From assembly GCF_013340205.1 (NCBI RefSeq), contig NZ_BJTG01000002.1, positions 124,001-188,000 of the forward strand: a stretch of DNA of 64,000 nt, written 5' to 3'. The notes beneath the pieces were generated by a model. The model had not been told where the DNA came from and made no database searches. It worked only from the letters and a program-made list of their open reading frames with translations. This document shows positions 1 to 19,049 of the stretch, one piece after another; position 1 is the first letter of the stretch; the number at the start of each line of letters is the position of its first letter. The position numbers were made by a program, and so were the translations under genes. This stretch comes from Anaeromyxobacter diazotrophicus (lineage in GTDB: Bacteria; Myxococcota; Myxococcia; Myxococcales; Anaeromyxobacteraceae).

Positions 1-325
1 CGATGGGCGGCGTCACGAGCGCCCGGATGTCGGCGCCCGTCATGGTGGCGGCGGACGCCTTGTAGGGCTTGCCGTCGATCTGGATCGGGATCTGATGGTC
101 GCCGGGGTTGATCGTCGTCGGGGCGGAGAAGAGGTGCGTCCCGGGCTTCAGCTCGATGACGTCGGAGTCGCCGACCTTCCGGTCGTCCGCGGGGCCGGGG
201 ACGACGAGGAACAGGTCGCGGTCGGGGCCGATGGGCGGCGAGGCGAGGGCGCGGATCTGCGCGCCCGTCATCGTCGGGGCCGGGGCGTCGTACTTCTTCT
301 GGTCGATGAGGATGGGGATGTGCAT
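1..325 (-). CDS. Multiubiquitin-domain protein (partial, continues past left edge)
   Basis: The 108 visible residues hold one complete ubiquitin-like unit (about residues 2-75) and the start of a second (from about 78). Both units share the pattern IPI-x-ID-x-K-x-Y followed by TMTGA-x-IRAL and a PPI turn. The first continues with GPDRDLFLV, an acidic DD pair and a closing SAPTTINPG. This is the bacterial multiubiquitin family, whose members are thought to be ubiquitin-like modifiers encoded beside E1-like, E2-like and JAB or metal-binding genes. The ATG start is preceded by an AAAGGA ribosome site about eight bases upstream. The gene diverges from a sigma-factor-like gene across 198 bp. Later repeats, the C-terminal tail and any conjugation enzymes lie outside the window. 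Family assignment is strong; the conjugation role here is inferred. Confidence 0.9.
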   Translation of the reverse strand, partial: MHIPILIDQKKYDAPAPTMTGAQIRALASPPIGPDRDLFLVVPGPADDRKVGDSDVIELKPGTHLFSAPTTINPGDHQIPIQIDGKPYKASAATMTGADIRALVTPPI

Positions 326-523
326 GGCGTACGGTCCTTTCGTTCGGGCGGTCCCGGGGCGCGGCACCATGCCGGCGCTCCCTGGCCACCTAAGAAGGGA
401 TGCTCCCCAGCCGGGATTTTTCGCGGTGCGTCCAGGCGGATCTGCTAACGTCCCGTCGCCACAGGTGTTCTAGGGGCGCCGCGAAAACCTGCCGGACGGG
501 AGCATCAACCGGGTGGAGGTGCG

Positions 524-1129
524 GTGGACGGGAAGACCCGAGCGTATTTCGTGAAGGTCTTGCCGACCGTCTATCCGACGGTCCTGGCTCGCGCCGTCAT
601 GCTCGTGCGCCGGCGCCGGTGGTTCGTGAAGCGGTACGGTAGCGAGAAGGAGGCCGCGGAGGAGTTGGCGCAGGACGCGGTCCTCCGGACGATGACGGGG
701 AAGCGGACCTGGAACCCGGCCAAGGTTCCGGACCTCGACTATTTCCTGAGCGGCGTGATGCGGAGCATTCTCAGCGCGGCGAGCAAGAGCCCGACGTTCC
801 TCACCGAGCCGCTGAGCACGGTCCCGGTGGCGCACGACGGGGACGAGGCCTCTTCGGCCGACGAGGTCCTCGGGACGCTCGACGATCGCGCCCGCGGCAT
901 GAAGGATCCGGAGACGGCGCTGCTGGACGCGGAGGCCTGCTCGATGCTGGTGGACCGCGCGCTCGACGCCGCTGGAGACGACGCCTCCGCGGCCAAGGTC
1001 GTCGACGCGGTGGTCGATGGCTGCGAGAAGGTGGCAGAGATCGCGGATGCCACCGGCCTCACCGCCGAGAAGATCTATTCCGCTACCCGCAAGATCCGGG
1101 ATCGGTACCGGAGGGGAGCGAAGCGATGA
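524..1129 (+). CDS. RNA polymerase sigma-factor-like protein
   Basis: A 201-residue protein with the layout of a small sigma-70 factor. An N-terminal helical block (about residues 30-95) resembles region 2, with EEAAEELAQDAVLRTM and WNPAKVPDLDYFLSGVMRSI, the form seen in small sigma-like proteins of accessory loci. After a variable acidic linker comes a C-terminal helix-turn-helix like region 4 (about 155-198, VAEIADATGLTAEKIYSATR). It would direct transcription of a small target set, perhaps the divergent multiubiquitin gene. The GTG start follows GGAGGT by only three bases; no better start is visible. Its stop overlaps the next ATG (ATGA), so the two are coupled. No typical anti-sigma gene adjoins. 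A non-sigma DNA-binding role is possible. Confidence 0.75.
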   Translation: MDGKTRAYFVKVLPTVYPTVLARAVMLVRRRRWFVKRYGSEKEAAEELAQDAVLRTMTGKRTWNPAKVPDLDYFLSGVMRSILSAASKSPTFLTEPLSTVPVAHDGDEASSADEVLGTLDDRARGMKDPETALLDAEACSMLVDRALDAAGDDASAAKVVDAVVDGCEKVAEIADATGLTAEKIYSATRKIRDRYRRGAKR

Positions 1130-1545
1130 AGAAGCCCCCGCCTAAGAACACTGACGCCGAAGTCGCCTCGCGACTCGAAGGGCTCTTCGAGCAGGTCCCA
1201 CTTGAACCACGTGAGATCGAGGAAACGCTCCGAGAGGTGGGGATAGATGCGAAGTCCGCCACGGAGCGGATGATGGCGCGCGTGTTGGAAGTTCAGGAGC
1301 ACGAACGTCGTGAACGCTTGGCTCAGGCCGACTCGGAACGAAAGGCAGATGCCGTTAGGCACCAGTCGAAGCGCGGTGGCGCGTCGCTGCGGAGCCGGGC
1401 CGAGATGCTCGCAAGGTTCTTCGAGATCCGAACCCAGCACCCCGCGGCAGCCGCGATGTTTCGTGACTTTCAGTCCGCTTCGGACGAGGACCTACGGTCC
1501 CTTCTCGACGACCTCGAAGAACTGATCTCCGGTGGCGACTCGTAA
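1126..1545 (+). CDS. Hypothetical helical protein linked to the sigma-like gene
   Basis: A 139-residue charged, mostly helical protein with no recognised domain, signal peptide or membrane segment. The middle (about residues 40-90) is rich in Arg, Glu and Gln and could form a coiled coil; the last 30 residues are acidic (SDEDLRSLLDDLEELI). It overlaps the sigma-like gene by four bases and the metallopeptidase start lies inside its last codons, so the three should be made together. A short, charged protein placed directly after a sigma factor could be an adaptor or antagonist of it, and the following ImmA-type protease could remove it. That role is inferred from gene order alone. Confidence 0.7.
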   Translation: MKKPPPKNTDAEVASRLEGLFEQVPLEPREIEETLREVGIDAKSATERMMARVLEVQEHERRERLAQADSERKADAVRHQSKRGGASLRSRAEMLARFFEIRTQHPAAAAMFRDFQSASDEDLRSLLDDLEELISGGDS

Positions 1546-2332
1546 GCCACAAGATGCCGACATGGCGAGGGGTGAGCGCGTCGCCAGGGAGGTGTACGCG
1601 GAGATCGGACTCGCTCACCCGACCGAGATTCCGATCGAGACGCTCGCGTACATGCGCGGCGCTCGCGTTCGCGATGTCCGGATGCCAGGGGCGCAGGGGC
1701 GGCTCGCCCGGCTCGGGTCGAAGGCAATTATCGCGGTCAGCGACGCGGTCACCTACGCGCCGCGGCGCCGGTTCGTCATCGCGCACGAGGTCGGTCACCT
1801 GGAGCTGCACGAGGCGGAGAACCAGATCGCGCTCTGCGACGAGGCCAAGATCGACGAGGTCTACGACCAGGGCACCGAGCGGGAGTCGAACGCCTTCGCG
1901 ACAGAGCTGCTCATGCCCCGCGCCCTGTGGGCAAAGCGCGTGGACGTGGCGAAGCCCGACCTGAACGTGGTGGCGAAGCTCGCGGACGAGTTCCAGGTCA
2001 GCTTCACGGCAGCGGCGATCCGGTTCGCGAAGCTGTGCCCGGAACGATGCGCGGTCGTGTTCTCTCAGGACGGGGTGATCAGGTGGTCTGCGGCGGGACG
2101 TGAGTTCGGCCACTGGATTCAGTGGGGGGCGAAGCTGGACCGCTACACCCTGGCCTACGACTACTTCGCGAAGGGCGGGGTGGGTGACCGACCGGAAACC
2201 GTGGACGCCAGCGCATGGCTCGCGTCCGAGCGGCTCGGCAAGGACGACGACCTCGTCGAGCACTCCCGCCCGATCCCAAGCCTGAGGGCGGTGCTCTCGT
2301 TGCTGTGGATTCCCTCCGACCGAGAATTCTGA
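1532..2332 (+). CDS. ImmA/IrrE-family zinc metallopeptidase
   Basis: A 266-residue protein with the zinc-protease motif HEVGH at residues 85-89 and a downstream ESNAFATELLMP segment, which supplies the third metal ligand and matches the family's N-x-FA-x-x-LLMP signature. ImmA of ICEBs1 cleaves a phage-type repressor, and IrrE of Deinococcus cleaves DdrO after DNA damage, so members usually switch on stress or mobile-element genes by cutting a regulator. Here the likely target is a product of its own operon or the sigma-like protein. About 100 residues follow the protease part with no recognised domain. The GTG start overlaps the previous gene by 14 bases; an in-frame ATG at 1562 is an alternative that would remove the overlap. 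Confidence 0.88.
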   Translation: MATRKPQDADMARGERVAREVYAEIGLAHPTEIPIETLAYMRGARVRDVRMPGAQGRLARLGSKAIIAVSDAVTYAPRRRFVIAHEVGHLELHEAENQIALCDEAKIDEVYDQGTERESNAFATELLMPRALWAKRVDVAKPDLNVVAKLADEFQVSFTAAAIRFAKLCPERCAVVFSQDGVIRWSAAGREFGHWIQWGAKLDRYTLAYDYFAKGGVGDRPETVDASAWLASERLGKDDDLVEHSRPIPSLRAVLSLLWIPSDREF

Positions 2333-2640
2333 GGTGATGGCCGGCCTTCCCGGCCGGACCTGAGAAGGCAGTTACCTTCCTCGTCTCCGAGATGGGGGTC
2401 CGTTGAATTCAGGCTGACCCCCTTGCCGCATCCGGAGATTCGATCAGAGAGCGTTGGGGCGGGGGTGCTGTTCTCTACTCGGGCGGCGCCTTCGGGCGCT
2501 TCTGGAATGGTTTTGGACTCTTTGGGGCCGCGTTCATCGCGCAAGGAGGTTCCAACGCCGGCTGGTGGCTGGTTGCGCCGAAACAGTTGCGCGCTGCGTC
2601 GGCCGGGCGGACGATGAGCAAGAACTCTGCGTGAGGTCTC
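2333..2640 (+). other. Intergenic stretch with possible degraded small ORF
   Basis: A small hairpin (CCGGCC, loop TTCCC, GGCCGG at 2341-2357) follows the metallopeptidase gene but has no T run, so it is not a convincing terminator. From 2407 to 2634 one forward frame is open and reads as a plausible glycine- and aromatic-rich peptide (AFGRFWNGFGLFGAAFIA, then GGWWLVAPK-like sequence). It has no ATG, GTG or TTG near its beginning and follows a TGA at 2404. Its stop lies six bases before the next start. It may be the end of a broken gene or chance. Confidence 0.3.
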
Positions 2641-3402
2641 GTGGCGACGTTCCTGCGGCAGGTCAGTGGAATGCTGAAGGCCGGCGGCAACGTCGGCCGC
2701 GCCGAGAAGCTCGAACGGCAGGGTCGGCTCGCCGACGCGCGGGTGGCGCTCCTGCAGGCAATCGAGGCGACGGGGCTGGCCACTTCGAGCCTCCTCGAAC
2801 CCGCCACGGCATCTAGCCGCTTCGTGGCGACGACGGCGCTCGCGCGCATTGCGGCCTTGCTCCACGACCGTGTCGAGGCCACGCAGTACGCAAGGGCTGG
2901 ACTTGCGCTGTGGGCGGAGGCGCGCCTCGCCGTCCCGGCCATGCGAGACGTGAACGGGTTCGCGGAATGGGAGTCGTGGGCGCGCGCCTACCTCGAACGT
3001 GAGGCCACCCAGGACGAGGTTCCCGTCGGGATGAAGATCGAGTTCATCCCCGACGGAGCGCCGGAAACTCCGCTCATCCTGATCAAGGGGCGAGACGGCG
3101 AGGCCGTTCGCGCGCTTCGCGACGCGATCGCTCGCGCGGATCGCGGCCCGTTCGCTGTCCACGCGGTCCGCGGTGTCGAGCCGGTGGGTGGCTGCCACCT
3201 CGCGGCCGCGCTGGGCGATCGAGATCGCGGAGTTCGGCAGGTCGGGAAGCTCGCGTTCGAGTGGGTCCTGGATGCCGAAGGATGGGCGCAGGTAAATGGG
3301 TTGCTGAAGCCGTTCGAGGATCCCACGCCAGGTCGCGGGTTCCAGTACCTCAGCAGAGAAGGGGAAGTCCGGGTGCTGATCTCGCGCGACGGACGGTGGT
3401 AG
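2641..3402 (+). CDS. Hypothetical protein with helical-repeat-like N-terminus
   Basis: A 253-residue protein that I do not recognise. Residues 10-105 are alanine-rich helices with a tetratricopeptide-like rhythm (RAEKLERQGRLADARVALLQ, then ATQYARAGLALWAEARL). The second half is mixed alpha/beta with a segment of the form EVPVGMKIEFIPDG and a hydrophobic strand LILIKG. There is no signal peptide or membrane helix, so it is probably cytoplasmic. The GTG start follows an in-frame TGA at 2632 and a weak GAGG at 2634-2637, so the true start cannot lie further upstream. It lies 27 bases before the next gene on the same strand and inside the presumed island. Codon usage fits a real gene. Confidence 0.62.
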   Translation: MATFLRQVSGMLKAGGNVGRAEKLERQGRLADARVALLQAIEATGLATSSLLEPATASSRFVATTALARIAALLHDRVEATQYARAGLALWAEARLAVPAMRDVNGFAEWESWARAYLEREATQDEVPVGMKIEFIPDGAPETPLILIKGRDGEAVRALRDAIARADRGPFAVHAVRGVEPVGGCHLAAALGDRDRGVRQVGKLAFEWVLDAEGWAQVNGLLKPFEDPTPGRGFQYLSREGEVRVLISRDGRW

Positions 3403-3429
3403 CCGCCGGGACACGGCGCGGAGGTAGTC

Positions 3430-4164
3430 GTGTGGATCGTCTCGAAGCTGGTCGTCACACCGCGCACCTACTCGTTCGCGTCGAGTGGGCAGGGAACGAA
3501 TGAGGATCTGGTCCTCCATGCTGATGACCAGGAACTCGTGAACATGCTGCGGCTGGTCGACTGGAGTGAGGATCCAGTGCAGGTCGTCGTGTGTGACGCC
3601 TGCGGCACCGTGGGGTGTGCTACCGGAAACTACGTCGCGGTTCGGCGGCTGGCGGACTACGTCGTGTTTGCACCACCGACGAGACCGTACGAAGAGACGG
3701 CGGACGAGACCGAGAAGGTCCAGTACCTAGAGCCATGGTTCATCAGGAAGCGCGGAGTCCCGCTCGTGCCAGTAGCTGAGTGGGATCGACTTCGGAACGA
3801 CGGCTTCCCACTCCCTTCATCGGAATCGATGTCGCCGCTTCGGTGGAGCGAAGCGGTGATCGCTGCGCAGATCGAGGCGCCGCATCGGATGCTCGGTGAT
3901 CCGGGACAGAAGCCGCAGCAGCGGCTGTCGGAAGTCGTTCAGGCGACGGACCCCTGGCTCGAAGCTGAAGTGCTTGACCGTCTCGGAGATGTTGCGGCCT
4001 GGCGAGCAAAAGGGACGATCGCGACGCTCAGGAAGATCATTTCCGGGCAGAAGGGGTCGCTGATCCTCAAAGATCCCTTTCAAGAGGTGGTCCTTTTCGG
4101 GAAGGACGGCGACGAATTTGGCCTCTACTTTGAGCCCGGCATGCTTCTCCTGCCGCGCCACTAG
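3430..4164 (+). CDS. Hypothetical protein with CxxC-type cysteine cluster
   Basis: A 244-residue protein without a recognised family. Around residues 55-70 it has C-D-A-C-G-T-V-G-C, a CxxCx4C cluster that could bind zinc or iron, preceded by beta strands (QVVVCDACG). The last third (about 180-240) is helical and then strand-rich, ending in an aromatic and hydrophobic tail. No transmembrane segments or signal peptide are present. The GTG start has a good GGAGG site five bases upstream. It is the last gene before the apparent island border and probably shares a transcript with the preceding gene. Its base composition is slightly less GC-rich than the chromosome on the right, consistent with island cargo. 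Confidence 0.62.
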   Translation: MWIVSKLVVTPRTYSFASSGQGTNEDLVLHADDQELVNMLRLVDWSEDPVQVVVCDACGTVGCATGNYVAVRRLADYVVFAPPTRPYEETADETEKVQYLEPWFIRKRGVPLVPVAEWDRLRNDGFPLPSSESMSPLRWSEAVIAAQIEAPHRMLGDPGQKPQQRLSEVVQATDPWLEAEVLDRLGDVAAWRAKGTIATLRKIISGQKGSLILKDPFQEVVLFGKDGDEFGLYFEPGMLLLPRH

Positions 4165-4420
4165 CACGAGCTTGGTGAGCAAGTTACGCAGCTCGGAGCG
4201 GACGGCGGTCGTAAGCACCAACGAGCAGTAGGGCCCCCGAGATTGAACCTGCGACTCGGGTGTCAGGCGCTGCGTGTCTCCCGAATGTCTCCCACTGTGG
4301 GGGGCAGGGACGGGGAGAGCTGGGGCATCCCGGGGTACAGGACTGAACCCGGAACCGACGTTTCGGACAGGTAAATCAGCGAAAAGGCGTGGACCATCGC
4401 TTGGTTGCCCGAACAGCGCC

Positions 4421-4450
4421 GGTCGGGTTCAAATCCTGTCTCCCCGACTT
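4421..4450 (+). other. 3' tRNA fragment, probable attachment site (island border)
   Basis: The segment carries a T-loop (TTCAAAT, 4428-4434), the 3' half of a T-stem (CCTGT), a seven-base acceptor strand (CTCCCCG, 4440-4446) and discriminator A, much like the 3' end of a bacterial proline tRNA. No matching D-arm, anticodon arm or T-stem partner precedes it: the upstream bases TCGGG pair poorly with CCTGT. A strong terminator follows directly. This is what integration into a tRNA 3' end leaves behind, with the intact tRNA expected beyond the left edge. Confidence 0.62.
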
Positions 4451-4451
4451 A

Positions 4452-4503
4452 GAAGGCCGCGATGTCGCTCGGGTTTCCGAGGGGCACGCGGCCTTCGTTT
4501 TTT
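4452..4503 (+). terminator. Rho-independent terminator after the tRNA fragment
   Basis: A perfect ten-base stem (GAAGGCCGCG at 4452-4461 with CGCGGCCTTC at 4487-4496) is followed by a run of T at 4498-4503. It most likely terminated the original tRNA gene and now marks the chromosomal side of the junction. Confidence 0.8.
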
Positions 4504-4676
4504 CTGACGGTGACTTCGCCGCAAAATCCGCCGCAACTTCTTCAGCCTCGTCCAGGGCTGAGGGTAGCCCGGAGTGGCGCGCGCCAGCCCCTCGATGCCT
4601 GTGAGCGGCATCGCTGCCCGACGGGAAGAGGCGCGTCCGCTCGACGTCCGCGCGCTTTTGTAAGCCTGTCCGGGTC

Positions 4677-4853
4677 GCGTGGGCAGAGCGCGGTGGTGGA
4701 CACGCCGGTCCCGGCAGCTCTCGCGAGCGCGACCCAGAACGTAAGAACATACGCCTCCGTCGCGTAGCAGACGCCCATGAACGGGCCAGGGCGAATGCGA
4801 CTGTCGAGGCGGCGTTCAGGATTCGGCCCGAGCCGGCGCGTCCAATGTACGGA
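4677..4853 (-). pseudogene. Short-chain dehydrogenase remnant (frameshifted)
   Basis: On the reverse strand one frame reads GSGRILNAASTVAF (about 4794-4853). The adjoining frame carries on as RPGPFMGVCYATEAYVL and then ALARAAGTGVSTTALCPR (down to 4677). Joined, these match the core of a short-chain dehydrogenase/reductase: the N-(V/A)-AS-(T/S) active-site serine segment, the Y-A-T-(K/E)-A catalytic tyrosine segment with Glu in place of the usual Lys, and the T-A-L-C-P motif. The N-terminal Rossmann nucleotide-binding part and the C-terminus are absent. It is therefore a dead, truncated fragment with at least one frameshift near 4795, just outside the island border. Confidence 0.6.
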
Positions 4854-4961
4854 GGAGCGCGGAGCCTCAGCTTGGGAGACCGACGCGGAGTCGAGTCCCC
4901 GGCCGTGAGTTCACCGTAGACGTAACGTGAAGGACCGAGCAGGATCGAGGTAGGGGTGTCC

Positions 4962-5399
4962 ATGAACGACGTGCGCGAGCAAATCAGGCTCCTCTCCATC
5001 TTCCACTACGTCCTGGCAGGGCTCACGGCACTCTTCAGCCTCATCCCGACGCTCCACGTCGTAATGGGTGTCAGCATGCTGCGCGGTCAGTTCGGCATCG
5101 TGCCCGGACAGATCGGCGCACACCGCGGGCCCCCTCCGGAGTTCGGATGGTTGTTCATCGGAATGGGCGCCTTCATGCTGCTGGCTGGGCTATCCCTTGC
5201 CGTACTTCTTCTGATCGCTGGTAACTCTCTGCGAGCCCACCGGCGGCGGACGTATTGCATCGTCGTCGCGGCCGTCTCTTGCGTGTTCTTTCCGTTCGGG
5301 ACGGTGCTCGGCGTCTTCACCATCCTGACTCTGTCGAAGCCCGAGGCGAAGACGCTGTTCGCGCCTCCGCCGCCGCTCGCAACGGGCCAGACAACGTAA
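4962..5399 (+). CDS. Small multi-pass membrane protein, function unknown
   Basis: A 145-residue protein with about three hydrophobic helices: residues 14-35 (YVLAGLTALFSLIPTLHVV), 65-90 and 95-120. A proline-rich tail (APPPPLA) follows. I do not recognise a specific function; similar small membrane proteins are common in GC-rich Proteobacteria and Myxococcota. The ATG was chosen because AGGGG lies five bases upstream; a GTG six bases earlier is in frame. The next gene begins six bases after its stop, so the two form a short operon. Confidence 0.7.
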   Translation: MNDVREQIRLLSIFHYVLAGLTALFSLIPTLHVVMGVSMLRGQFGIVPGQIGAHRGPPPEFGWLFIGMGAFMLLAGLSLAVLLLIAGNSLRAHRRRTYCIVVAAVSCVFFPFGTVLGVFTILTLSKPEAKTLFAPPPPLATGQTT

Positions 5400-5405
5400 G
5401 GGACC

Positions 5406-5909
5406 GTGGCTCCTGCGCCCTTTATCGTCCGTCCCGCGGGCCCCTGTGATGCGGCTGCCATCACCGCCGTACACATCGACTCGATCACCGTCCTGGGTGC
5501 GCGAGGGTACGCGCCCGACCAGGTGGCGCAGTGGCGTCTACCCTGTGCGCCTCAGCGGTACGTCGATGCGATGGCACGCGGCGAGCACTTCTTCCTCGCG
5601 GTGACGTCAGACACGGCTCCGGGTCCACTCGGCTTTTCCGCGTATCGTGTCGAGCATGGTCTTCACCGAATCGCGACCTATGTCGCAGCACGCGGAGCGC
5701 GTCGGGGGGTGGGGACCGCGCTCTACCTTGCCGCCGAGGAGCTGGCGCGCACACGCGGGGCCCGCGAAATCCACGTCGACTCGTCCCTTGTAGCCGTCGA
5801 CTTCTACCTCGCCCTCGGCTTCGACGAGGTTGCGCGCGGAGCGCACCCGCTGCGCATCGGGGGCGATCTGCCGTGCGTATTCATGCGAAAGGTGATTGTA
5901 AAGTCATAA
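5406..5909 (+). CDS. GNAT-family N-acetyltransferase
   Basis: A 167-residue protein spanning a GCN5-related acetyltransferase fold. It opens with a strand-helix (IVRPAGPCDAAAITAVHIDS), and residues 95-120 hold the acetyl-CoA motif A (V-A-x-x-x-RR-G-V-G-T-A-L, matching Q/RxxGxG/A). The C-terminal strand-helix-strand is typical (VDFYLALGFDEV). It should acetylate a small molecule or protein amine in the cytoplasm; the substrate cannot be told from sequence. The GTG start follows the upstream membrane-protein gene by six bases, so they are probably co-transcribed. The stop is 40 bases from the end of the convergent MFS gene. Confidence 0.85.
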   Translation: MAPAPFIVRPAGPCDAAAITAVHIDSITVLGARGYAPDQVAQWRLPCAPQRYVDAMARGEHFFLAVTSDTAPGPLGFSAYRVEHGLHRIATYVAARGARRGVGTALYLAAEELARTRGAREIHVDSSLVAVDFYLALGFDEVARGAHPLRIGGDLPCVFMRKVIVKS

Positions 5910-5949
5910 TCACCGTCGGGCAGGACGGCTGGCGGCTTGGCGACGGAGC

Positions 5950-7404
5950 TCACCTTCCCTTGGGGACCGTGAGCATGACGGAGACGATGGCGACGACGAC
6001 CATCAGGATGTTGAATCCCAGCGCGATGATCGCGGCCCCGCGCACCGCCAGGTTGTCCTGACGGCCCTGGAACGTGATCACGCCCTCGAGCCAGTGCACG
6101 CTCCGCGGGTTCGCGCCGAGCGCCGTGAAGATCGCCGCGGAGATCGCCACGCCGAACGCCGCGCCCAGGGACGACGCCATCTTGTAGATGCCGGATCCGG
6201 AGCCAGACTGGGCGGCCGGCAAGTTGGACAGCGCCGCGTCGGTCGACGGCGTCGCGTAGAAGGCGAGCCCTACGCCGAACAACGTGTAGCCGATCACGGC
6301 CATCACCTCGTAGTCGGCCAGCATCACGTTGGCCGGGGTGAGCAGCAGGATCGAGGCGCCCGTGATCAGGCACCCCCACAGCATCGGCCGGCGGGCGCCG
6401 AAGCGCCGTAGCAGCTTCTCGCCCACGCGGATGAAGGCGATGATGGCGATGGCATAGCCGAGCGTCAGGACGCCGGCCTGCTGGGCCGACATGTTGCCGC
6501 CGATCTGCACGAGCTGCAGGGACACGATCAAAGTCCCGGCCACCGCGTTGAGAAGGAAGTTGGAGAGGGTTGCCCCGGTGTAGGTCGAGTTGCGGAACAG
6601 GCCGAAGTCGATGAAGGCGTTCGGAGCCTTGGCTTCGATGCGGAAGAACAGCCATCCGAAGACGACCGCCGTGGCCATCAGCGCGAGCGAGGCCGGGCTG
6701 CTCCAGCCGAGCCTGTTGCCCTGGGTGACCACCACCTGCACGGCCACCATCGCGACCATGAAGGCGAGCACTCCGGACCAATCGAACCTGTACTCGCCCC
6801 GGGTCTCGGCCCGGCTCTCCGGCGTCCCGCGCAGCAAGACCAGGCCAACAGCGGCGGCCGCCACCGAGGCGAAGAAGATGTAGCGCCAGCCCAGGTGCTG
6901 CGTCACGAGCCCGCCGAACAGCGAGCACACTCCGGAGCCACCCCACGAGCCGATGGACCACAGGCTGATCGCGCGCTGGCGCGCGGCGCCGTCCCAGTAC
7001 GCCTTCACCAGCGCGAGGCTCGCGGGCATGATGCAGGCGCCCGAGAGCCCCTGGAGCGCTCGCCCCGCCAGGAGAGATGGCACCGCGAGCCTGCCCGAGG
7101 GCGCCAGGCCGACCAGCAGCGAACCGACCATGCTCAGGGCGAAGCCGAGCTTCACGATCTTCAAGCGGCCGACGCGGTCGGCCAGCCCACCCATCACCAC
7201 GATGAAGATGCCCGAGAACAACGCCGTGATCGCCACCGCGATGTTCATCACGCTGGCGTCCGTGCCGAGCTCGCGGCTCATGTCGGGCGCGATGTTGAGC
7301 GTCGTCTGAGCGAACAGCCAGAAGGTCAGCACGCCCAGGATGATGCCGAGCAGGAGCCGGTCGTTGCCCTGGAACGAAACGCTGCTGGTGCCGGGCGCGC
7401 TCAT
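5950..7404 (-). CDS. MFS drug-efflux transporter (DHA2/14-helix type)
   Basis: A 484-residue integral membrane protein with about fourteen hydrophobic segments. It has the major-facilitator signature between helices 2 and 3 (GGLADRVGRLKIVKLGF) and a motif-C-like region in helix 5 (GSWGGSGVCSLFGGLV), which mark the antiporter DHA2 group (QacA/EmrB/SdrM-like). It should export toxic organic compounds using the proton gradient. It is the last leftward gene of a series beginning with an NmrA-like gene. A terminator at 7515-7547 separates it from the SnoaL-like gene, so it probably has its own promoter in 7405-7514. Regulation by the TetR protein at 13712 is possible but unproven. Confidence 0.88.
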   Translation of the reverse strand: MSAPGTSSVSFQGNDRLLLGIILGVLTFWLFAQTTLNIAPDMSRELGTDASVMNIAVAITALFSGIFIVVMGGLADRVGRLKIVKLGFALSMVGSLLVGLAPSGRLAVPSLLAGRALQGLSGACIMPASLALVKAYWDGAARQRAISLWSIGSWGGSGVCSLFGGLVTQHLGWRYIFFASVAAAAVGLVLLRGTPESRAETRGEYRFDWSGVLAFMVAMVAVQVVVTQGNRLGWSSPASLALMATAVVFGWLFFRIEAKAPNAFIDFGLFRNSTYTGATLSNFLLNAVAGTLIVSLQLVQIGGNMSAQQAGVLTLGYAIAIIAFIRVGEKLLRRFGARRPMLWGCLITGASILLLTPANVMLADYEVMAVIGYTLFGVGLAFYATPSTDAALSNLPAAQSGSGSGIYKMASSLGAAFGVAISAAIFTALGANPRSVHWLEGVITFQGRQDNLAVRGAAIIALGFNILMVVVAIVSVMLTVPKGR

Positions 7405-7514
7405 CCGGATGGATCCTCCCGTGCTCGGAGATTGTGGCTACGTCATCTCGCCGGGATGAAGAAGCGCCGGACGAGCGATCGGCGTCATGAAGAGGACGCG
7501 TGGTCGTGCCAACG

Positions 7515-7547
7515 GAAGAAAAGGGGGCCGCCCGTCGGCGGGCCCCG
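7515..7547 (-). terminator. Rho-independent terminator after the SnoaL-like gene
   Basis: Read on the reverse strand, a GC-rich hairpin (GGGGCCCGCC, short loop, GGGCGGCCCC, with one bulge) is followed by CTTTTCTT. It lies about 95 bases beyond the stop of the SnoaL-like gene and upstream of the MFS start, so it should end transcription between them. Confidence 0.65.
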
Positions 7548-7641
7548 CTTGAGACCTGAGCCCCGCAGGACCTTTGGCGCACGCAACCGGACGGAACGAT
7601 CTGCGCACGCCCGCACGGGGGCGTGCCCCTCTGCCATCCGG

Positions 7642-8061
7642 CTAAGCCAAGCGGTCGGGGATCGGCTTCAGGCGATACACGGACCAGAAGAACAGGTCCG
7701 CCTTGTGCTGATCGGCGGCGAAGTTCGTGACTTCCTTGATCCGCCCGCCCTCGAACCGGAACACGAGGCACCACGTCATGTCCACGCCGCCAGCGACCTC
7801 GCTCCAGCCGCGGTGGTGGTCGATGACGTAGTCTCCGTCCGCGACCACCACGATGGGCTTCGCCTGGAAGCTCGCTCTCGCGAGCTGGTCGAAGAACGCG
7901 AGCACCTCGTCCACGCCGCGCTTCTCGCCAGCGAGTGGATGATGGCCGGGGATGCGCCACACGATGTCCGGTGCGAGCGCCTCGCGGACTCTCGCGACGT
8001 CCTTCGCGGCGTACGCGCCAAAGAAGTCCTCGATCACCTGCAGGTTGGGGTGCTTGGTCAC
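7642..8061 (-). CDS. SnoaL-like / NTF2-fold protein
   Basis: A 139-residue NTF2-fold protein. It opens with the characteristic N-terminal helices (LQVIEDFFGAYAAKDVARVR), followed by LAPDIVWRIPGHHPLAG, a helix (VDEVLAFFDQLA), and a curved sheet ending in MTWCLVFRFEGGRIKEVTNF. Such proteins bind small hydrophobic ligands or act as cyclases, isomerases or hydrolases; the reaction here is unknown. The GTG start was chosen for its GAAGGA site about seven bases upstream. A longer frame exists, but its first 80 residues are low-complexity and have no ribosome site. The gene lies downstream of copy 1 of the duplicated membrane protein on the same strand. Confidence 0.82.
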   Translation of the reverse strand: MTKHPNLQVIEDFFGAYAAKDVARVREALAPDIVWRIPGHHPLAGEKRGVDEVLAFFDQLARASFQAKPIVVVADGDYVIDHHRGWSEVAGGVDMTWCLVFRFEGGRIKEVTNFAADQHKADLFFWSVYRLKPIPDRLA

Positions 8062-8266
8062 GAATCCGTCCTTCTCGAGGGCCTGGCATCGGATCCGGAC
8101 GACCGGTGGTCCGGATGCGGGTGGTGGCCCGGAGTGACTGCCGGCGATGGAGGTAACGTCCTGCTCGATGACCTGCACTGCCCCACCGCGCGACTCACTC
8201 GAGGTGCTCAGCTCGCCTCCCGAGATGAACCGACAGCCGGCACGCCGCTTGGCGCGAGCAGCGAGG

Positions 8267-8782
8267 CTATCCGGGGGATGGCTGGCCCGAGAAGGCGGAT
8301 ACACGCTGGGGCTGGAGAAGAATCCGGAAAGCGAGGCCGTGCATGATCAGCAGCAGCGGCACGATGAGCGTCGGAATGAAGTAGGCCGCTCCCAGCTGCC
8401 CTGGCAGGAGCCCGGAGTGATTGGCCTGGTAGAAGGCGTTCACGAGGTCGGCGGTGCCCCAGATGCCGAAGATCCACGCGAGGACGACGCCCGCTGCGCG
8501 GGGCAGCGACCAGAGTGACAGCAACGCGAGCGTCGCCGCGATGAGGTCCCCGTACGCGGCGGAGTCGGCGAAGGCGGGCGGCACGCCGGGCGAGACCACG
8601 CCGGGGACGAGGAAGGCCAACCCGACGAAGCGGAAGGCGTGGAGCATCAGCAGAGGCCGCAACGCCTCTGCTCTCGGCCGGAGACGAAGGGCCGGCCAGA
8701 CGTATCGGGCGGTGACGATCCCCCACGCGAGGAGGCTGAACGCGATGCTGGCGAAGAACCAGAGGCGTGATGCCATGGGCAT
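8267..8782 (-). CDS. Conserved membrane protein, copy 1 of a duplication
   Basis: A 171-residue protein with about four or five transmembrane helices (residues 5-27, 42-64, 75-100, 103-118 and 130-157) and an aromatic segment WIFGIWGTADLVNAFYQ. I cannot name a function. It is nearly identical to the product of 11899-12411: the first 157 residues differ at about seven positions, and the C-termini then diverge completely (here ending SAFSGQPSPG) exactly where the DNA repeat ends. One copy has therefore acquired a new tail. A start-proximal ATCTCC-rich leader is shared by both copies. The SnoaL-like gene follows on the same strand. Confidence 0.72.
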   Translation of the reverse strand: MPMASRLWFFASIAFSLLAWGIVTARYVWPALRLRPRAEALRPLLMLHAFRFVGLAFLVPGVVSPGVPPAFADSAAYGDLIAATLALLSLWSLPRAAGVVLAWIFGIWGTADLVNAFYQANHSGLLPGQLGAAYFIPTLIVPLLLIMHGLAFRILLQPQRVSAFSGQPSPG

Positions 8783-8831
8783 CTCCTGGAGCTGGTTGCG
8801 GCGGGTGACTGCGTCGAAGGACCAGGCGCGC
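8308..8831. repeat. Direct repeat, copy 1 (524 bp)
   Basis: This segment matches 11937-12460 in the same orientation at a constant offset of 3629 bases, with scattered substitutions and no indels. It covers almost all of a membrane-protein gene and about 50 bases upstream of its start. The two copies bracket the TIR gene and transposase remnants. Confidence 0.9.
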
Positions 8832-8913
8832 TGCGTCGGCGAGGGCCTCGGCCCGTCCCAGCGCGGCGCTGGCCTCGGCCGCGCCCGGCGCTCACCTGCG
8901 AGCTGGCGTGGCC

Positions 8914-9180
8914 TTGACCTGCCCCCCGAAAACTACCCCAGCGAAGGTGTCCGTCCTCTCGTGATGGAGGAGGGGACGCGATGCCGAAGGGCAGGACGCA
9001 TACCGCGGAACAGATCATCCGAGCGCTGCGTGAGGTCGACGCCGGCGTGAAGGTCGGCGACGTTTGCCGGCAGCTCGGAGTCGTCGAGAAGTACTACGGG
9101 ATGGAGCCGAGCGAAGCGCGTCGTCTTCGAGAACTCGAGGACGAGTTCAGGCCGGAAGGTGCCACGCTGGGATACTACGG
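8914..9180 (+). mobile_element. IS3-family insertion sequence remnant (left end and broken orfA)
   Basis: A terminal inverted-repeat-like end (TTGACCTGCCCCCCGAAAAC, 8914-8933) is followed by an orfA-like reading frame starting ATG at 8981. It opens MPKGRTHTAEQIIRALREVD, continues VGDVCRQLGV, and then runs into GMEPSEARRLRELEDE. IS3-family OrfA proteins have this helix-turn-helix and leucine-zipper layout. The second helix (usually a TYYRWR-type motif) is shortened here, and after RELEDE the frame loses similarity. No orfB with a DDE catalytic core follows. The element is dead, and only its left 250 bases or so remain. Confidence 0.6.
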
Positions 9181-9302
9181 AATCGTAGGTCACACCGCCG
9201 GGCGCGTCTTCGCTGGAGCACGCGCACCGCGGTGGTTCGAAGAACTGATCGCGCGAGCGATGTGCCGAAACCGCCATCGAGCGGCGCCTCCAACAGCGGC
9301 CC

Positions 9303-11270
9303 TCAGGCTACCTCAGGGCGAGCGCAAGGCTGCCACGCAACAACGGTCGGTCTCGCGCCGGCCGTCGAAAAATCGTACCTGAACCCTCGAAGCGCGCCGC
9401 TGTCATCCTGCGCGAGCACGGTACGAACGTAGGGCTTCTCTGCAATAGCTGCGGCGCCACCTAGCAGTGTCGCTGGCGGCGAGCCTGGAGCGGCGGCTGG
9501 GGTCTCCTCCAGGATCCAGAATGGAAACTCAGGCTCCGGGCACCGAGCTACAGCGCTGAACCCGTTGGTGGTGCATGAGTATTCGTGCGGTCCTGTAGCA
9601 GTTACGGCAATCTTTCGCCGCCCGTCCATGAAAAATGCATCGAGAGGCCGGGGGCGTCTGAGGCTACTCAGGCCATCAGCCGCCGTCGAGGCCAACATGC
9701 CAGCTACTTCGCCTCCGGTCTCGGCAAGTCGGTCGCTCTCCTGGGTCTCCCGGTTGAGCGCTTGCTCGCAATCGGCCCTTACTTTGTAGGGTAAGTCGGG
9801 ATGCGCAACGTTGAACCTACCTGCATGAGTCTCCAAGATCTCAAGCGCGCCAGCGTGGTTGGGACCCTGCGTAAGCAGCAGAGCCAAATTGACCTTAGCG
9901 ACGTTGATACCCGCATCAGCCGCCCGCTTGTATGCTAGGTAGGCCTGTGAGCGGAGATTATTCACGTGCAACGCGCGGCCAAGCTGTAGTGTGGATCCGT
10001 CTTTCGTGTTCGCGTGCTCACGTGCATAGTGAACAGCTACCGCCAGCCACTCGCGTTCGATCGCAAGGTTGACGGCGCGCTCCAGCGCAGCGCTGCTGCC
10101 GTTCATGCCTTCGGCGTATGCGAAAAATAGCATCGTGACGATCGGATCCACGGTTGTGGTTGTGCGTGCGTACAAAAGCGCGCAATTAGATCTGAGTTCG
10201 CGCGATGAGGCGCACAGTCCCTCGTGGATGACCGTAAGAGCGGCGGCAACATCTCCGACGCGATATAGTGCAGAAGCTAAGGCTTCATACGAAGCCCGAG
10301 ACCACCGCGAGTCGCCGGCGGCGATGCAAGTCCTATAGTGTCTGATCGCGTGTGTCGGAATTCGTTCGCAGAGCCCCATGAAGTACTGGCAAACCGCCGA
10401 TCCGCGCGTCTCCGGATCGAGGTGTTCTAGCGCCTGCAGCGAGTCGGCGGTCGTTCTCTTCGTTCCGATTACGATCTTCGCCACTCGCGCTTCCTGTTTG
10501 AGGCTTGGCGGGGCATCTGAAGATTCAAACGACGACAGCCTCTTGTCGGCGGAGTCTTTGTCGCCAGCGGAAAGGTCGCTGACGATCTTCCGCAAAGCTG
10601 CGGCATGAGAATCGACGTCATCGCCTCCGGCATCCGGGTCTTGCTCAGCGGTCTGCTTCGCCGCCGCGAGCGCGCGCTCGAACGCCGCGTAGCGCTGCGC
10701 GAACCATGGCTTAAGGATGCCGCCGGTCGCCTCGGCGACGCTCTTCAGTAGTCGTTCAACCGCCGGCTTGTCGCTTGCGTTTGTTGCTTGGTAATCGGCG
10801 ATCGTGCTGCTCAGATCTTCCGTCCCCGCCTCTACTAGCAAGGGCGCGTAAAGTTGATTTCTGCCCCACGCTGCTCCTGCTTCAAAAAAGATCCATTCGC
10901 GAGCTTTTGATGCCGGCGTGATGAGGCCTACAAACGCTTTGGCGCGCTGAACCGCGCGTTGGATTTGTGGCTTGTAACCGATCGCGGAGGGCCGAAGGCT
11001 CTCTCCTGATATGAACACTTCTGGAGCGGGCTCGAGGGAAGCCTCGACCAAACGCTTGACGGCGGCAGCGATAGCGTAGTCCACCCCCGCCCGGTAAGAT
11101 ATAAACACGGTCGCCGACTCCGTAGCGGCCATTGGCAACGGTTCTTCCCTGGGGTCCCTTGGCGCTTCTTCTGCCGGCTCGCCGCCGCGTTGATCGTGCT
11201 GCCCAGCGGCTACATCGTGACGCTCGGCGGCTTCGCCCTCCGAAGTGCGCCCGGATTCGTTCTCGTCCAT
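9303..11270 (-). CDS. TIR-domain protein with C-terminal helical repeats (putative defence NADase)
   Basis: A 655-residue protein. A TIR domain spans about residues 48-180: it begins ATVFISYRAG, contains VFISGESL, and carries a W-x-x-x-E signature (EWIFFEAGAAWG) with the likely NAD-hydrolysing Glu at 130. From about 215 to 530 come alpha-helical Sel1/TPR-like repeats (YRVGDVAAALTVIHEGL; AYLAYKRAADAGINVAKVNL), followed by a C-terminal beta-rich tail. Bacterial TIR proteins of this layout often act in phage defence, depleting NAD or making a signal once a sensor is triggered; here the repeats would be the sensor or scaffold. The gene is clearly AT-richer than its surroundings and lies between transposase fragments, indicating transfer. 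An ATG at 11132 is a possible shorter start, removing a 46-residue acidic extension. Confidence 0.82.
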   Translation of the reverse strand: MDENESGRTSEGEAAERHDVAAGQHDQRGGEPAEEAPRDPREEPLPMAATESATVFISYRAGVDYAIAAAVKRLVEASLEPAPEVFISGESLRPSAIGYKPQIQRAVQRAKAFVGLITPASKAREWIFFEAGAAWGRNQLYAPLLVEAGTEDLSSTIADYQATNASDKPAVERLLKSVAEATGGILKPWFAQRYAAFERALAAAKQTAEQDPDAGGDDVDSHAAALRKIVSDLSAGDKDSADKRLSSFESSDAPPSLKQEARVAKIVIGTKRTTADSLQALEHLDPETRGSAVCQYFMGLCERIPTHAIRHYRTCIAAGDSRWSRASYEALASALYRVGDVAAALTVIHEGLCASSRELRSNCALLYARTTTTVDPIVTMLFFAYAEGMNGSSAALERAVNLAIEREWLAVAVHYAREHANTKDGSTLQLGRALHVNNLRSQAYLAYKRAADAGINVAKVNLALLLTQGPNHAGALEILETHAGRFNVAHPDLPYKVRADCEQALNRETQESDRLAETGGEVAGMLASTAADGLSSLRRPRPLDAFFMDGRRKIAVTATGPHEYSCTTNGFSAVARCPEPEFPFWILEETPAAAPGSPPATLLGGAAAIAEKPYVRTVLAQDDSGALRGFRYDFSTAGARPTVVAWQPCARPEVA

Positions 11271-11438
11271 GCGTTACCCCGTCCAGCAGTAAAACCGACC
11301 CCGACGCCCGCGGGTCCGCCCGAACTGTATGGACCGCGGAGTTCACGACTCCCTGCGCGGCAGTGTAGTCGAGTTCGTGGCTCTAGGCCGCCCGGCGAAG
11401 CGTGGCTGCGACGAGCATACAGCGAGTGGAACGGGCGA

Positions 11439-11540
11439 TCAGAAGAGATCGCGCACGTCAACGCCGAGCGCGGTGCTCAGCCGATCCACCGTGCGCAGAG
11501 CCGCGTTGACCTCGCCGTCCGAGGGGAGGTCCAAGGGCGC
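11439..11540 (-). pseudogene. XRE-type regulator C-terminal fragment
   Basis: The reverse strand encodes GEVNAALRTVDRLSTALG followed by VDVRDLF and a stop, closely resembling the last helices of Cro/CI-type helix-turn-helix regulators. The recognition-helix half is missing from every frame upstream. It may be the relic of a regulator that once preceded the TIR gene. The similarity is short, so this is tentative. Confidence 0.35.
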
Positions 11541-11600
11541 TCTCACTTGGTCATTGCAGCACCTCGGCGATAATGGCGACGACATCGCTGAGGAGGTGGG

Positions 11601-11855
11601 ATGCGGAAGCGCGTCGATCGCGGGTGCCGCCTGCCGGAAGGAGACCGGTTCGAGATCCAGCGGCGAGATGCAGCCGGTGAGATGTTCGCCGCTGCTACCA
11701 CCGCGGTGGGCTGCTCGACGAAGTCGATTCAACGGTTCATGCGGCACACCGGCGGCATGCGACCCAAAGCGTGGGATCGGGACCTGCGGCGGCTCATCGG
11801 GCGCCCGACGACGACGCTCGCGCAGACGGTCGCCGCGGCGTTGAAGCGCGCGTGA
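11601..11855 (+). pseudogene. IS30-like transposase N-terminal fragment
   Basis: An 84-residue open frame holds a helix-turn-helix like the first DNA-binding motif of IS30-family transposases (FEIQRRDAAGEMFAAATTAV, then KSIQRFMRHTGGMRP). The second helix-turn-helix and the DDE catalytic domain are absent. The frame instead ends in LAQTVAAALKRA and a stop about 80 bases before the direct repeat. I read it as a truncated insertion-sequence remnant; a small stand-alone DNA-binding protein is the alternative. Confidence 0.35.
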
Positions 11856-11898
11856 CGGCGACCGCGTGAGTTCCGCATGGCGCGAGCCACCGGGCCAT

Positions 11899-12411
11899 TC
11901 AGGTGATGGCTTGCCCGACACGGACGGTTGCCCGCCGGGGCTGGAGAAGAATCCGGAAAGCGAGGCCGTGCGTGATCAGCAGCAGCGGCACGATGAGCGT
12001 CGGAATGAAGTAGGCCGCTCCCAGCTGCCCTGGCAGGAGCCCGGAGTGATTGGCCTGGTAGAAGGCGTTCACGAGATCGGCGCTGCCCCAGACGCCGAAG
12101 ATCCACGCGAGGACGACGCCCGCTGCGCGGGGCAGCGACCAGAGTGACAGCAACGCGAGCGTCGCCGCGATGAGGTCCCCGTACGCAGCGGGATACGCAA
12201 AGGCGGGCGGCACCCCGGGCGAGACCACGCCGGGGACGAGGAAGGCCAACCCGACGAAGCGGAAGGCGTGGAGCATCAGCAGAGGCCGCAACGCCTCGGC
12301 TCTCGGCCGGAGACGAAGGGCCGGCCAGACGTATCGGGCGGTGACGATCCCCCACGCGACGAGGCTGAACGCGATGCTGGCGAAGAACCAGAGGCGCGAC
12401 TCCATGGGCAT
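11899..12411 (-). CDS. Conserved membrane protein, copy 2 of a duplication
   Basis: A 170-residue multi-pass membrane protein, near-identical to the product of 8267-8782 except for its C-terminus (ending in VGQAIT) and a few substitutions (for example Tyr-Pro for Asp-Ser near residue 73). It begins 50 bases after the NmrA-like stop on the same strand, so this copy sits in the likely ancestral operon order: NmrA-like protein, then membrane protein. Function unknown. Its last dozen codons lie outside the repeat, so one or both copies have altered ends. Confidence 0.72.
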   Translation of the reverse strand: MPMESRLWFFASIAFSLVAWGIVTARYVWPALRLRPRAEALRPLLMLHAFRFVGLAFLVPGVVSPGVPPAFAYPAAYGDLIAATLALLSLWSLPRAAGVVLAWIFGVWGSADLVNAFYQANHSGLLPGQLGAAYFIPTLIVPLLLITHGLAFRILLQPRRATVRVGQAIT

Positions 12412-12460
12412 CTCCTAGCGCTGGGTGCGGCGGGTGACTGCGGCGAAGGATCGGGCGCGC
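11937..12460. repeat. Direct repeat, copy 2 (524 bp)
   Basis: This is the partner of 8308-8831, same orientation. It ends two bases before the NmrA-like stop codon region, so the duplication boundary nearly coincides with the gene end. Confidence 0.9.
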
Positions 12461-12461
12461 C

Positions 12462-13583
12462 TCAGGTCTCGGCCGCCAGGCGAGCGGCGGGGTGGAGCTC
12501 CTCGCGGCTCGCCCCGGCGGGAACGCCATCGGCGACGGCCACGTGCTCGCGCCGCCAGACCTCGGAGTCACGCGCGAGCTGCGGCTCCGAAGGGAAGGGG
12601 CGGCGCAGCTCTCGGTCGTAGCGGTCGAGGTCGAAGCCGGGAACGAGCGGAGTGACCAGGAACTGCGCCACCTGGCGCACCCAGTTGCGGAAGGTCCGCC
12701 GGTTCTGCGGCAGCGCGGCATAGCGGCGCGCGATCGTCTCGAAGTCCTCGGCCGGGCGACCCGTGACCTCGAGCACGTCCGTCGTGGGGGCGCCGAGCTC
12801 GAAGGCTCCCGCCCCGTGATCGCCGATGTAGTAGCGCAGGCCGCTGACCAGATCGATCGGCAGGCCGTTCATCCGCGCCGCCTTCAGGAACATCCACGGC
12901 GGCGTCGGCGCGACCCTGACCGCTCGCCCGACCGCGCGGCCAATCGCCTGGGCCATGTCCTCCGCGCCGAGCAGCCGTGGTCCCGTGGGGCGGTAACGTC
13001 GCCCGGCGTGCCGCGCGGGATCCGTCAGCGCCGCCACGGCGACCCGCGCGATGTCCTCGTTGGACGCCGGCGCGTTGCGGCTGCTGCCGCCGATCCAGGG
13101 AAAGATGCCGAGCTGCGCGGCCACTCCGGTCATCTCGAGATACGCGTCGGCGAAGATCCCCGGGTTGACGATGGTATGCGTGATCCCCGGGACCATCGCG
13201 AACAGCCGGTCCACGAGCCAGTGCTGGCGCGTCATCAGGGACGGGTGCGACGGGCTCGCCAGCCACTGCGTCAGGCCGACGAGGTGTTCGAGTCGCGCGT
13301 CGCGGGCGGCGACAGCGAAGGCGGCCGCGCCCTGGATCATGTAGGGATCGAAGGGCGGACAGTAGTAGGCGCGCTGGACGTCCTGCAGCGCGTCGGCGAT
13401 GCGCTCGACGTCGCTCATGTCGGCCACCGCGATCTCGGCTCCCTGCGCCTGCAGGCGCGCGCTGCGCGCATCCTCCCCGTGCACGACCGCGCGGACCGGG
13501 TAACCGGCCCTCAGCAGCTCGGCGACGACGATGGCGCCGGTCTTCCCGGTCGCGCCGGTCACGACGATGCGTGGCTTCCTCAT
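12462..13583 (-). CDS. NmrA-like NAD(P)-binding oxidoreductase
   Basis: A 373-residue protein with an N-terminal Rossmann fold: IVVTGATGKTGAIVVAELLR holds the GxxGxxG dinucleotide motif at about residues 10-16, followed by RAVVHGEDARSARL. This is the NmrA/atypical short-chain dehydrogenase layout, without a YxxxK active site. Members act as NADP-sensing regulators or quinone/sugar reductases. The last 100 residues are a helical extension beyond the usual family length. The ATG was chosen because GAGGAGAGGAAC lies directly upstream; a longer frame would run into the operator region. It is divergent from the TetR gene across 128 bp with repeated sites, so it is very likely TetR-repressed, together with the membrane protein behind it. 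Confidence 0.85.
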   Translation of the reverse strand: MRKPRIVVTGATGKTGAIVVAELLRAGYPVRAVVHGEDARSARLQAQGAEIAVADMSDVERIADALQDVQRAYYCPPFDPYMIQGAAAFAVAARDARLEHLVGLTQWLASPSHPSLMTRQHWLVDRLFAMVPGITHTIVNPGIFADAYLEMTGVAAQLGIFPWIGGSSRNAPASNEDIARVAVAALTDPARHAGRRYRPTGPRLLGAEDMAQAIGRAVGRAVRVAPTPPWMFLKAARMNGLPIDLVSGLRYYIGDHGAGAFELGAPTTDVLEVTGRPAEDFETIARRYAALPQNRRTFRNWVRQVAQFLVTPLVPGFDLDRYDRELRRPFPSEPQLARDSEVWRREHVAVADGVPAGASREELHPAARLAAET

Positions 13584-13633
13584 GTTCCTCTCCTCGAGTG
13601 GGCGCCTGCCTGGGCCCGGGTGGTTACGAGGTG

Positions 13634-13692
13634 GTACCGAATCGATGGTACCGGCGAGTACCATCGCGATGGAGTATGGTACCCGACAGTAC
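13634..13692. promoter_or_regulatory. Probable TetR operator cluster (five GTAC cores)
   Basis: The divergent TetR/NmrA gap holds five GTAC cores starting at 13634, 13648, 13658, 13679 and 13689, spaced 14, 10, 21 and 10 bases. Two of them lie within a perfect inverted repeat, CGATGGTAC-6-GTACCATCG (13643-13666). The near-helical spacing suggests several repressor dimers bind one DNA face. The likely binder is the adjacent TetR protein, controlling itself and the NmrA-like operon. Confidence 0.7.
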
Positions 13693-13711
13693 CGGCGTCA
13701 AGGGAGAGGCG

Positions 13712-14377
13712 ATGGCCAGGACCACGAAGTCGGAACGGCCCCCGGACGGGGGCGATCCAGCCGCGGTGCGCGGGCGCATCCTCGACGCCGCCTTCGCGGC
13801 GTTCATGAAGAGCGGCTACGCCGCGACCAGCACGCTCGAGATCGCCAGGCGCGCGCGCGCTTCGAAGCGAGAGCTGTACGCGCTGGTCGGCAACAAGCAG
13901 GAGATGCTGATCGCCTGCATCACCGAGCGCGCCAGGCGACTGGAGGTGCCGGCCGATGTGCCCGCGCCAGGCGACCGCGAGGCCCTGGCGCAGGTGCTGG
14001 CGTCCTTCGGGACGCAGCTCGTCCGGGAGATCAGCGATCCAGCGGTCGTCGCGGTGTTTCGACTCGCGATAGCCGAGGCCATCCAGGCGCCCGAGGTGGC
14101 GCGGACGCTGGACTCCATCGGCCGCGAGGCGAGCCGCACCGCCTTGCGAGAGGTCATGGCCCGCGCTCGGAAGGCCGGGCTGCTCGACGGCCGCCCGGCC
14201 GAGCTGGCCGAGCAGTTCAGCGGGCTGCTGTGGCGCGACCTGCTGCTGAGCCTGCTGCTGGGCGTCGCCGAGCGCCCGAACGCCCGCGAGATCGCGGAAC
14301 GTGCCCGTGACGCCGCGGCCGCTTTCCTCCAGCTTCACCCAGCCGTGGCGAGCCCGGCGAAGGGAGGGGGCGGTTGA
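13712..14377 (+). CDS. TetR/AcrR-family transcriptional regulator
   Basis: A 221-residue repressor. Residues 18-65 form the TetR DNA-binding domain (RGRILDAAFAAFMKSGYAAT, then LEIARRARASKRELYALVGNKQEML). The remaining residues form a ligand-binding helical domain of the AcrR/AefR C-terminal type. It probably represses the divergent NmrA-like gene and itself via the operators at 13634-13692, and is released by a small hydrophobic ligand. The ATG was chosen for its AGGGAGAGG site; an upstream extension would cover the operators and reads as non-protein sequence. It is followed closely by the convergent end of a lipoprotein gene. Confidence 0.9.
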   Translation: MARTTKSERPPDGGDPAAVRGRILDAAFAAFMKSGYAATSTLEIARRARASKRELYALVGNKQEMLIACITERARRLEVPADVPAPGDREALAQVLASFGTQLVREISDPAVVAVFRLAIAEAIQAPEVARTLDSIGREASRTALREVMARARKAGLLDGRPAELAEQFSGLLWRDLLLSLLLGVAERPNAREIAERARDAAAAFLQLHPAVASPAKGGGG

Positions 14378-14401
14378 AGATCGCCCGGGTCGTCGCAGCC
14401 G

Positions 14402-15859: not shown

Positions 15860-16123
15860 CGGACGTCTCCGGTGGAGGGGGCCGGCGCGCCTGAGCTGCC
15901 CGGCGAAGGGGCGAGCGCGAACATGGCATGCCCTCGCGCGCCCGGGCAATCACTCGTCGGGAGGACCGTGTCGCGCGGATCGGCTTCCCGGAACCGAGTG
16001 ACACCTGGGGAGACGACGTCGCGCGTCGGTGGCCCGCGGCTGCCGGCCCCATGGCCTTCGAACGCCCTCCGAGATGCAGGCGCGCGCCTCGCGCGCGGCG
16101 CGGCCCATATCTAGCCTTACCGC

Positions 16124-16894: not shown

Positions 16895-16972
16895 GTCCCG
16901 CGCGGGCGCAGCACGGTCGCCGCGCGCGCCGCAGCGCCTCGAGCCGGGCGCGGCGGCGGCGGCGGAGCCGGG

Positions 16973-17521: not shown

Positions 17522-17614
17522 GTTCGTGTCCTTTGGAGAGGAGCGGTTCGCTCGTGACGGGGAGAACATGCCGCTGTTGCAGCGTAGGCGCAACGGCCGA
17601 CGCGGCACATCTCT

Positions 17615-17630
17615 GTTCCATTGTTGGAAC
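17615..17630. promoter_or_regulatory. Palindrome in the YceI/symporter divergent gap
   Basis: GTTCCA-TTGT-TGGAAC is a perfect six-base inverted repeat around a four-base spacer, lying between divergent start codons. It looks like a dimeric regulator site, but no regulator gene adjoins it, so the binder is unknown. Confidence 0.4.
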
Positions 17631-17738
17631 GATCCGGGAAGCTCGGCGCGCGACCGGCCGGGCGCCCGCCCCCAGGGGTGGTGCCCACACCTGCCTTCAT
17701 CGATCCGCACGTGCGCCGCGTGCTAAGCCACCGCCGCC

Positions 17739-19031: not shown

Positions 19032-19049
19032 CGCCGACCGGCCGGCGCC

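Follow-up and report, generated by a model that had tools for sequence, protein, structure and literature searches.

A Displaced tRNA-Pro(CGG) 3′ End Marks the Far Border of a Defence-Like Genomic Island and Adjoins an Arm Found Across the Order

Results

Genes and Features at the Locus

The window analysed here, a 64,000-bp stretch of Anaeromyxobacter diazotrophicus (contig C2:124001-188000; the genome comprises 4.83 Mb in 17 contigs), begins within a group of accessory genes. On the minus strand at its left edge (1-325) lies the 5′ part of a multiubiquitin-E2 fusion gene, which extends left to about C2:123489 and is followed by an E1(ThiF)-JAB gene. This cluster was recognized from Pfam-type matches, in a single frame (Multi_ubiq 2.6e-11, ThiF 3.1e-34, Prok-JAB 1.2e-10, Prok-E2_E 4.9e-35). 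On the plus strand follow genes for a sigma-70 region 2-like protein (524-1129; PF04542, E = 1.4e-4, 22 bits, under the curated cut-off of 24) and an M78 (IrrE/ImmA-like) protease hit by the PADLOC CapP model (1532-2332; PF06114 4.3e-17, capP 5.5e-55), then two unknown genes (2641-3402 and 3430-4164) with neither Pfam nor PADLOC matches. The segment that we delimit below as an island also carries type I hsdM, hsdS, and hsdR and transposase genes. Judged by sequence likeness, this cargo appears defence-like (anti-phage), with type I restriction-modification, the multiubiquitin-E2/E1-JAB cluster, and the CapP-like protease. Inside the island, L013:15110-17519 holds orfA/orfB frames that we take from their Pfam domains to be IS3-like, with a presumably IS30-like transposase gene between or overlapping them. 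An ARAGORN call of tRNA-Ser(GGA) at 659-746 is probably false, as it lies inside the sigma-like gene and lacks Rfam support; Rfam at gathering thresholds matched nothing anywhere in the window.

The stop codon of the last island gene lies 112 bp before a conserved arm (4276-4425, plus strand), which leads directly into a tRNA-Pro(CGG) 3′ fragment (4426-4448, plus strand) running from the T loop to the acceptor end, with CCA not encoded. The fragment reads GGTTCAAATCCTGTCTCCCCGA(C), equal to GGTTCAAATCCTGTCTCCCCGAC. It had been predicted from the letters as a proline-like tRNA 3′ piece lacking its 5′ parts, and this is what we find: a tRNA-Pro 3′ end at which ARAGORN called no tRNA. Searching the whole genome with the fragment pattern at ≤2 mismatches returned only four matches, all forward, namely the intact tRNA-Pro genes at C2:112472 (CGG) and C9:58099 (GGG) and the fragments at C2:128426 (in the window) and C3:217635; the reverse strand and a reversed control pattern each gave 0. 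A rho-independent terminator follows on the plus strand (4452-4496; −37.8 kcal/mol, z = −7.6 relative to shuffles). The terminator itself agrees with the original prediction, but the perfect stem claimed for it does not, since the stem contains one bulge. Two inverted T-arm-like pieces proposed to the left fared worse. The piece at about 4335-4370 falls within the conserved end module, and by eye an inverted core copy is seen in only 3/11 aligned copies (the window, C3, and G016); that at 4240-4265 is not part of the conserved stretch and found no support.

An Intact tRNA-Pro(CGG) Brackets a 15.95-kb Island

An intact tRNA-Pro(CGG) gene lies at C2:112420-112496, outside the window, 15.9 kb left of the fragment and on the same strand, well within the roughly 100 kb over which a matching tRNA had been expected. 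The two share a 22-bp block with one mismatch. Together, the tRNA and the fragment (C2:128426-128448) bracket an island of 15.95 kb, of which window positions 1-4447 are the right part and C2:112497-124000 the remainder; the genes at 1-4164, suspected from the outset to be island cargo, thus lie inside the bracket, and the island reaches 11.5 kb further left than the window. Its GC content is 0.667, compared with 0.760 in the left flank. As in other tDNA islands, there is an intact tRNA at one end and a same-orientation 3′ fragment downstream at the other, the cargo is accessory, and the length falls in the accepted range (2-200 kb).

The two ends differ in ways that bear on the origin of the present tRNA gene. 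The attR fragment has A at a T-loop position where 12/13 intact genes of relatives (7/7 in the family) also have A, whereas the intact tRNA at attL has G; because of this, the island is the probable source of the 3′ end that the tRNA gene now has. A different hairpin follows the intact tRNA at attL, where a 67-base stretch folds at −36.4 kcal/mol (z = −5.3). We place the crossover, by inference, in or before the shared GGTTC.

Unoccupied Sites and a Variable Right Flank in Relatives

Scanning 29 loci from relatives for tRNAs revealed an intact tRNA-Pro(CGG) at 13. At 9/13 of these, the alignment to the window fragment runs on through the terminator; these relatives, one of them from the same genus (G001), have tRNA and homologous terminator uninterrupted. 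We conclude that the attR terminator originally belonged to this tRNA and was displaced by the island. The suggested comparison with a related genome lacking the island thus bears the prediction out, within a clear scope: in G001, what lies right of the tRNA does not match the window, and the unoccupied site holds for tRNA plus terminator rather than for both gene neighbourhoods. Left of the island, four relatives (G016, G021, G009, and G004) are collinear with the sequence as far as the tRNA. An intact tRNA in the right orientation, unoccupied tRNA-terminator sites, and a collinear left flank together support the proposed scar of tRNA-directed integration.

The right side departs from what had been supposed. 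Rather than ordinary chromosome, the next ∼14.5 kb, to ∼19 kb, is low in GC (0.685 over 4506-19040 versus 0.746 beyond) and unmatched in relatives, whose fetched right flanks show no DNA match before window position 19041. The first match (19041-21189) covers LysR and zinc-dehydrogenase genes, an anchor of only two genes; in G004 and G016 they lie 51-53 kb from the tRNA, and the stretches fetched from G021, G009, and G001 have no match to them. Because the adjoining ∼14.5 kb is low in GC and unmatched, the downstream side of the tRNA looks like a variable hotspot, with the scar as a junction within it. The right side may alternatively belong to a larger composite or to an older neighbouring element, as the lack of conserved chromosome right of the scar until ∼19 kb would allow. 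The low-GC segment also contains a 300-bp direct repeat, 95% identical (8296-8595 and 11925-12224), flanking a TIR-domain gene on the minus strand (9303-11270).

A Conserved Arm Is Paired With Several tRNA 3′ Ends

That the fragment is the attR of a genomic island makes it part of a known kind of element, and as a scar it is unremarkable; what deserves interest is the arm that precedes it, with its several tRNA partners. Every BLAST match to the region before the fragment starts at window position 4276 (C3, G016, G007, and G018). We aligned 14 candidate copies, dropped G034, G103, and G070, which do not share the module, and obtained an 11-copy alignment without gaps over 174 columns, in which the arm shows two GTCTCC boxes 11 bp apart, runs of G, and a AAAGGCGTG motif. 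A sequence-only model built from the 11 copies matched 62/147 genomes of the class, and a second model, built from 58 matches, matched 78/195 genomes of the phylum, all but one in the same order (the exception being G182, E = 7e-5). The GTCTCC pair with its 11-bp spacing is present in 50/54 copies examined, and arm length is nearly fixed at about 125-150 bp. Since constant length and GTCTCC boxes fit such a role, the arm is probably an attP arm bound by integrase or helper proteins.

What follows the arm is far less constant. Across 54 of the 58 module matches, tails match (≤2 mismatches) tRNA-Pro in 27, Gly in 10, Asp in 8, Glu in 6, and others in 3, so that 51/54 end in one of four tRNAs. 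Because the first model held only Pro and Gly tails, it was the arm that led to the Asp and Glu copies. The arm has no match in 50,697 phage records or in a plasmid collection. The portions of the open-licence literature covered contain no description of it in myxobacteria, from which we claim no absence from print. The same genome holds a second end-module copy at C3:217485-217656 (L015:14485-14656), flanked on one side by defence-like genes (TIR, SMC-like ATPase, and a helicase that also matches PLD) and on the other by genes matching type II/IV secretion ATPase and TrbL; no tRNA was called in the 37 kb fetched around it.

Six further islands could be delimited, each between this end module and an intact upstream tRNA matching the module tail. 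Three use tRNA-Pro (G016, 10.8 kb; G123, 4.9 kb; and G050, 11.4 kb), and the others use tRNA-Asp (G070), tRNA-Gly (G108), and tRNA-Glu (G071). The module at L150 was not counted, as its nearest tRNA (Met) mismatches the module tail. Cassette-like arrangements also occur. In G006, two modules lie 1.26 kb apart with an HTH gene between them and a HigBA-like pair upstream of one (by likeness to the pair in G018); a putative toxin partner between these modules was guessed by eye and has no Pfam match. Elsewhere, modules follow AbiEii-like and MqsA-like genes (G015), HigB/HigA-like genes (G018), and a TIR gene (G016). These cases suggest small units moved in trans, and loss of the integrase from once complete elements explains them equally well. 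A bolder reading would be a tRNA-anchored cassette system, in which one arm was re-paired in evolution with at least four tRNA 3′ ends and integrase-less defence or toxin-antitoxin units were integrated and stacked in trans by the integrases of relatives; we regard this as rather unlikely.

The Island Lacks a Detectable Integrase

A tyrosine integrase had been expected beside the tRNA, but a PF00589 search of the genome gave six matches, none of them in C2:112497-128447, and thus no integrase frame of the Islander type, inside or overlapping the island, was found. One of the six, a short 247-aa open frame adjoining the tmRNA gene (L021, C9:126181-126636), resembles the integrase carried by a sister element (54% identity across 157 aa). 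The G123 element (L123) is the most complete relative, and its 458-aa integrase (PF00589, 6e-17) is encoded immediately next to tRNA-Pro, pointing toward the tRNA; a short AlpA-like frame comes after it. Relatives of this integrase lie beside tRNA-Pro in G003 and G013, with fragments beside tRNA-Asp and tRNA-Gly in L119 and L120. Between tRNA and module, the islands of G016, G071, and G050 have no match to the body of the L123 integrase, the one integrase used in this comparison; the tRNA itself matches the read-through tail of that integrase. Facing (opposite-strand) integrase-like frames occur ≤400 bp beyond 10/50 modules, as expected for tandem elements (this count covers 50 of the 58 module matches, 8 weak or partial ones being set aside, and the same 50 served in delimiting islands by an upstream tRNA). 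In G012, an integrase frame (L058:11283-12803) reads through a tRNA-Pro scar of another kind, one that starts at the anticodon loop, and similarly long scars occur in G010, G019, G022, G029, G090, and G057.

An integrase gene that once crossed attP could have left the conserved 172 bp as its decayed 3′ coding sequence, the remainder having been deleted. A frame VSxMSP...SNPVSPT is stop-free in some copies and has tblastn matches in 12/145 genomes (some of them spurious by eye), and the G012 frame crosses a different scar. We nonetheless reject this reading as very unlikely on codon-position variation and integrase position: the 11 copies show no codon-position bias (0.333/0.314/0.314), and integrases of this element type sit on the other side of the core, facing it; several copies also contain stops. 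It is highly improbable, too, that the module is a folded hairpin site, either integron attC-like or a structured RNA, with cargo moving as cassettes. Hairpin-like inverted repeats are visible by eye around the AAAGGCGTG motif and the paired modules of G006 would suit such a site, but neither covariation nor folding exceeds controls: the covariation term is only −2.07 kcal/mol, column shuffles give equal helix scores, folding of the final 103 bases in the window copy is on a par with shuffles (z = −0.08), and Rfam has no match in the window. Finally, we give almost no credence to the fragment as a decayed tRNA duplicate without a role in integration, for which the lack of a remaining integrase in the island could be cited, given the same orientation, the T-loop breakpoint, the tRNA's own terminator still attached, the defence cargo between, and, among 53 other end-module copies examined, six with a matching intact tRNA upstream.

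Discussion

Our results make it very probable that the fragment is the attR of a 15.95-kb island integrated by site-specific recombination of the tyrosine-recombinase type into the T-loop region of tRNA-Pro(CGG). The attP of the island would have recombined with the tRNA gene in this region. At attL (C2:112420-112496), the tRNA 5′ part would have acquired a 3′ end from the island, complete with CCA and a new terminator hairpin, and the original 3′ end and terminator would have come to stand beyond the island, at attR (window 4426-4496). Preceding the fragment, a stretch of ∼150 bp would serve as the attP arm of the element family, where integrase or helper proteins probably bind and bend DNA. 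An integrase gene of the kind that faces the tRNA in the most complete relative was presumably lost here, and the island would then be either stranded or dependent on an integrase supplied in trans.

The finding of a scar gains from four additions: the terminator displaced from the tRNA, the lack of an integrase, a right side other than first supposed, and an arm spread across the order. They fix the borders of a defence-like island that an integrase-based search would miss, and they indicate that such an island can take the terminator of a tRNA away and put another in its place. Moreover, the DNA model (R1/R2) locates where related islands end throughout the order, independently of any integrase, and an arm joined to several tRNA 3′ ends is a natural setting in which to test target change by tyrosine integrases.

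Several known systems resemble parts of this picture. Integron cassette arrays combine a repeated end module, toxin-antitoxin-type cargo, and tandem copies, and all three have counterparts here, with tandem copies in G006 and G015. Unlike integron arrays, the modules described here end in tRNA 3′ pieces, give no convincing evidence for folded sites, and belong to elements with ordinary phage-type integrases beside the core. The myxobacterial phages Mx8 and Mx9 have tyrosine integrases as well. Their systems differ from ours in that the arm is unmatched among the phage records searched and the integrase of the element family lies beyond the core, whereas that of Mx8 is named in the Islander description (PMC4383910) as an integrase extending across attP. 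The closest likeness is to the tDNA islands of Islander itself, which, in the same description, share a tRNA restored by the island, a displaced 3′ fragment at the far end in the correct orientation and on the correct side, and the T-loop region as a listed crossover class. Islander rejects candidates without an integrase frame, according to that same text, and because it demands one and none was found inside the island in our window, its catalogue would miss this island.
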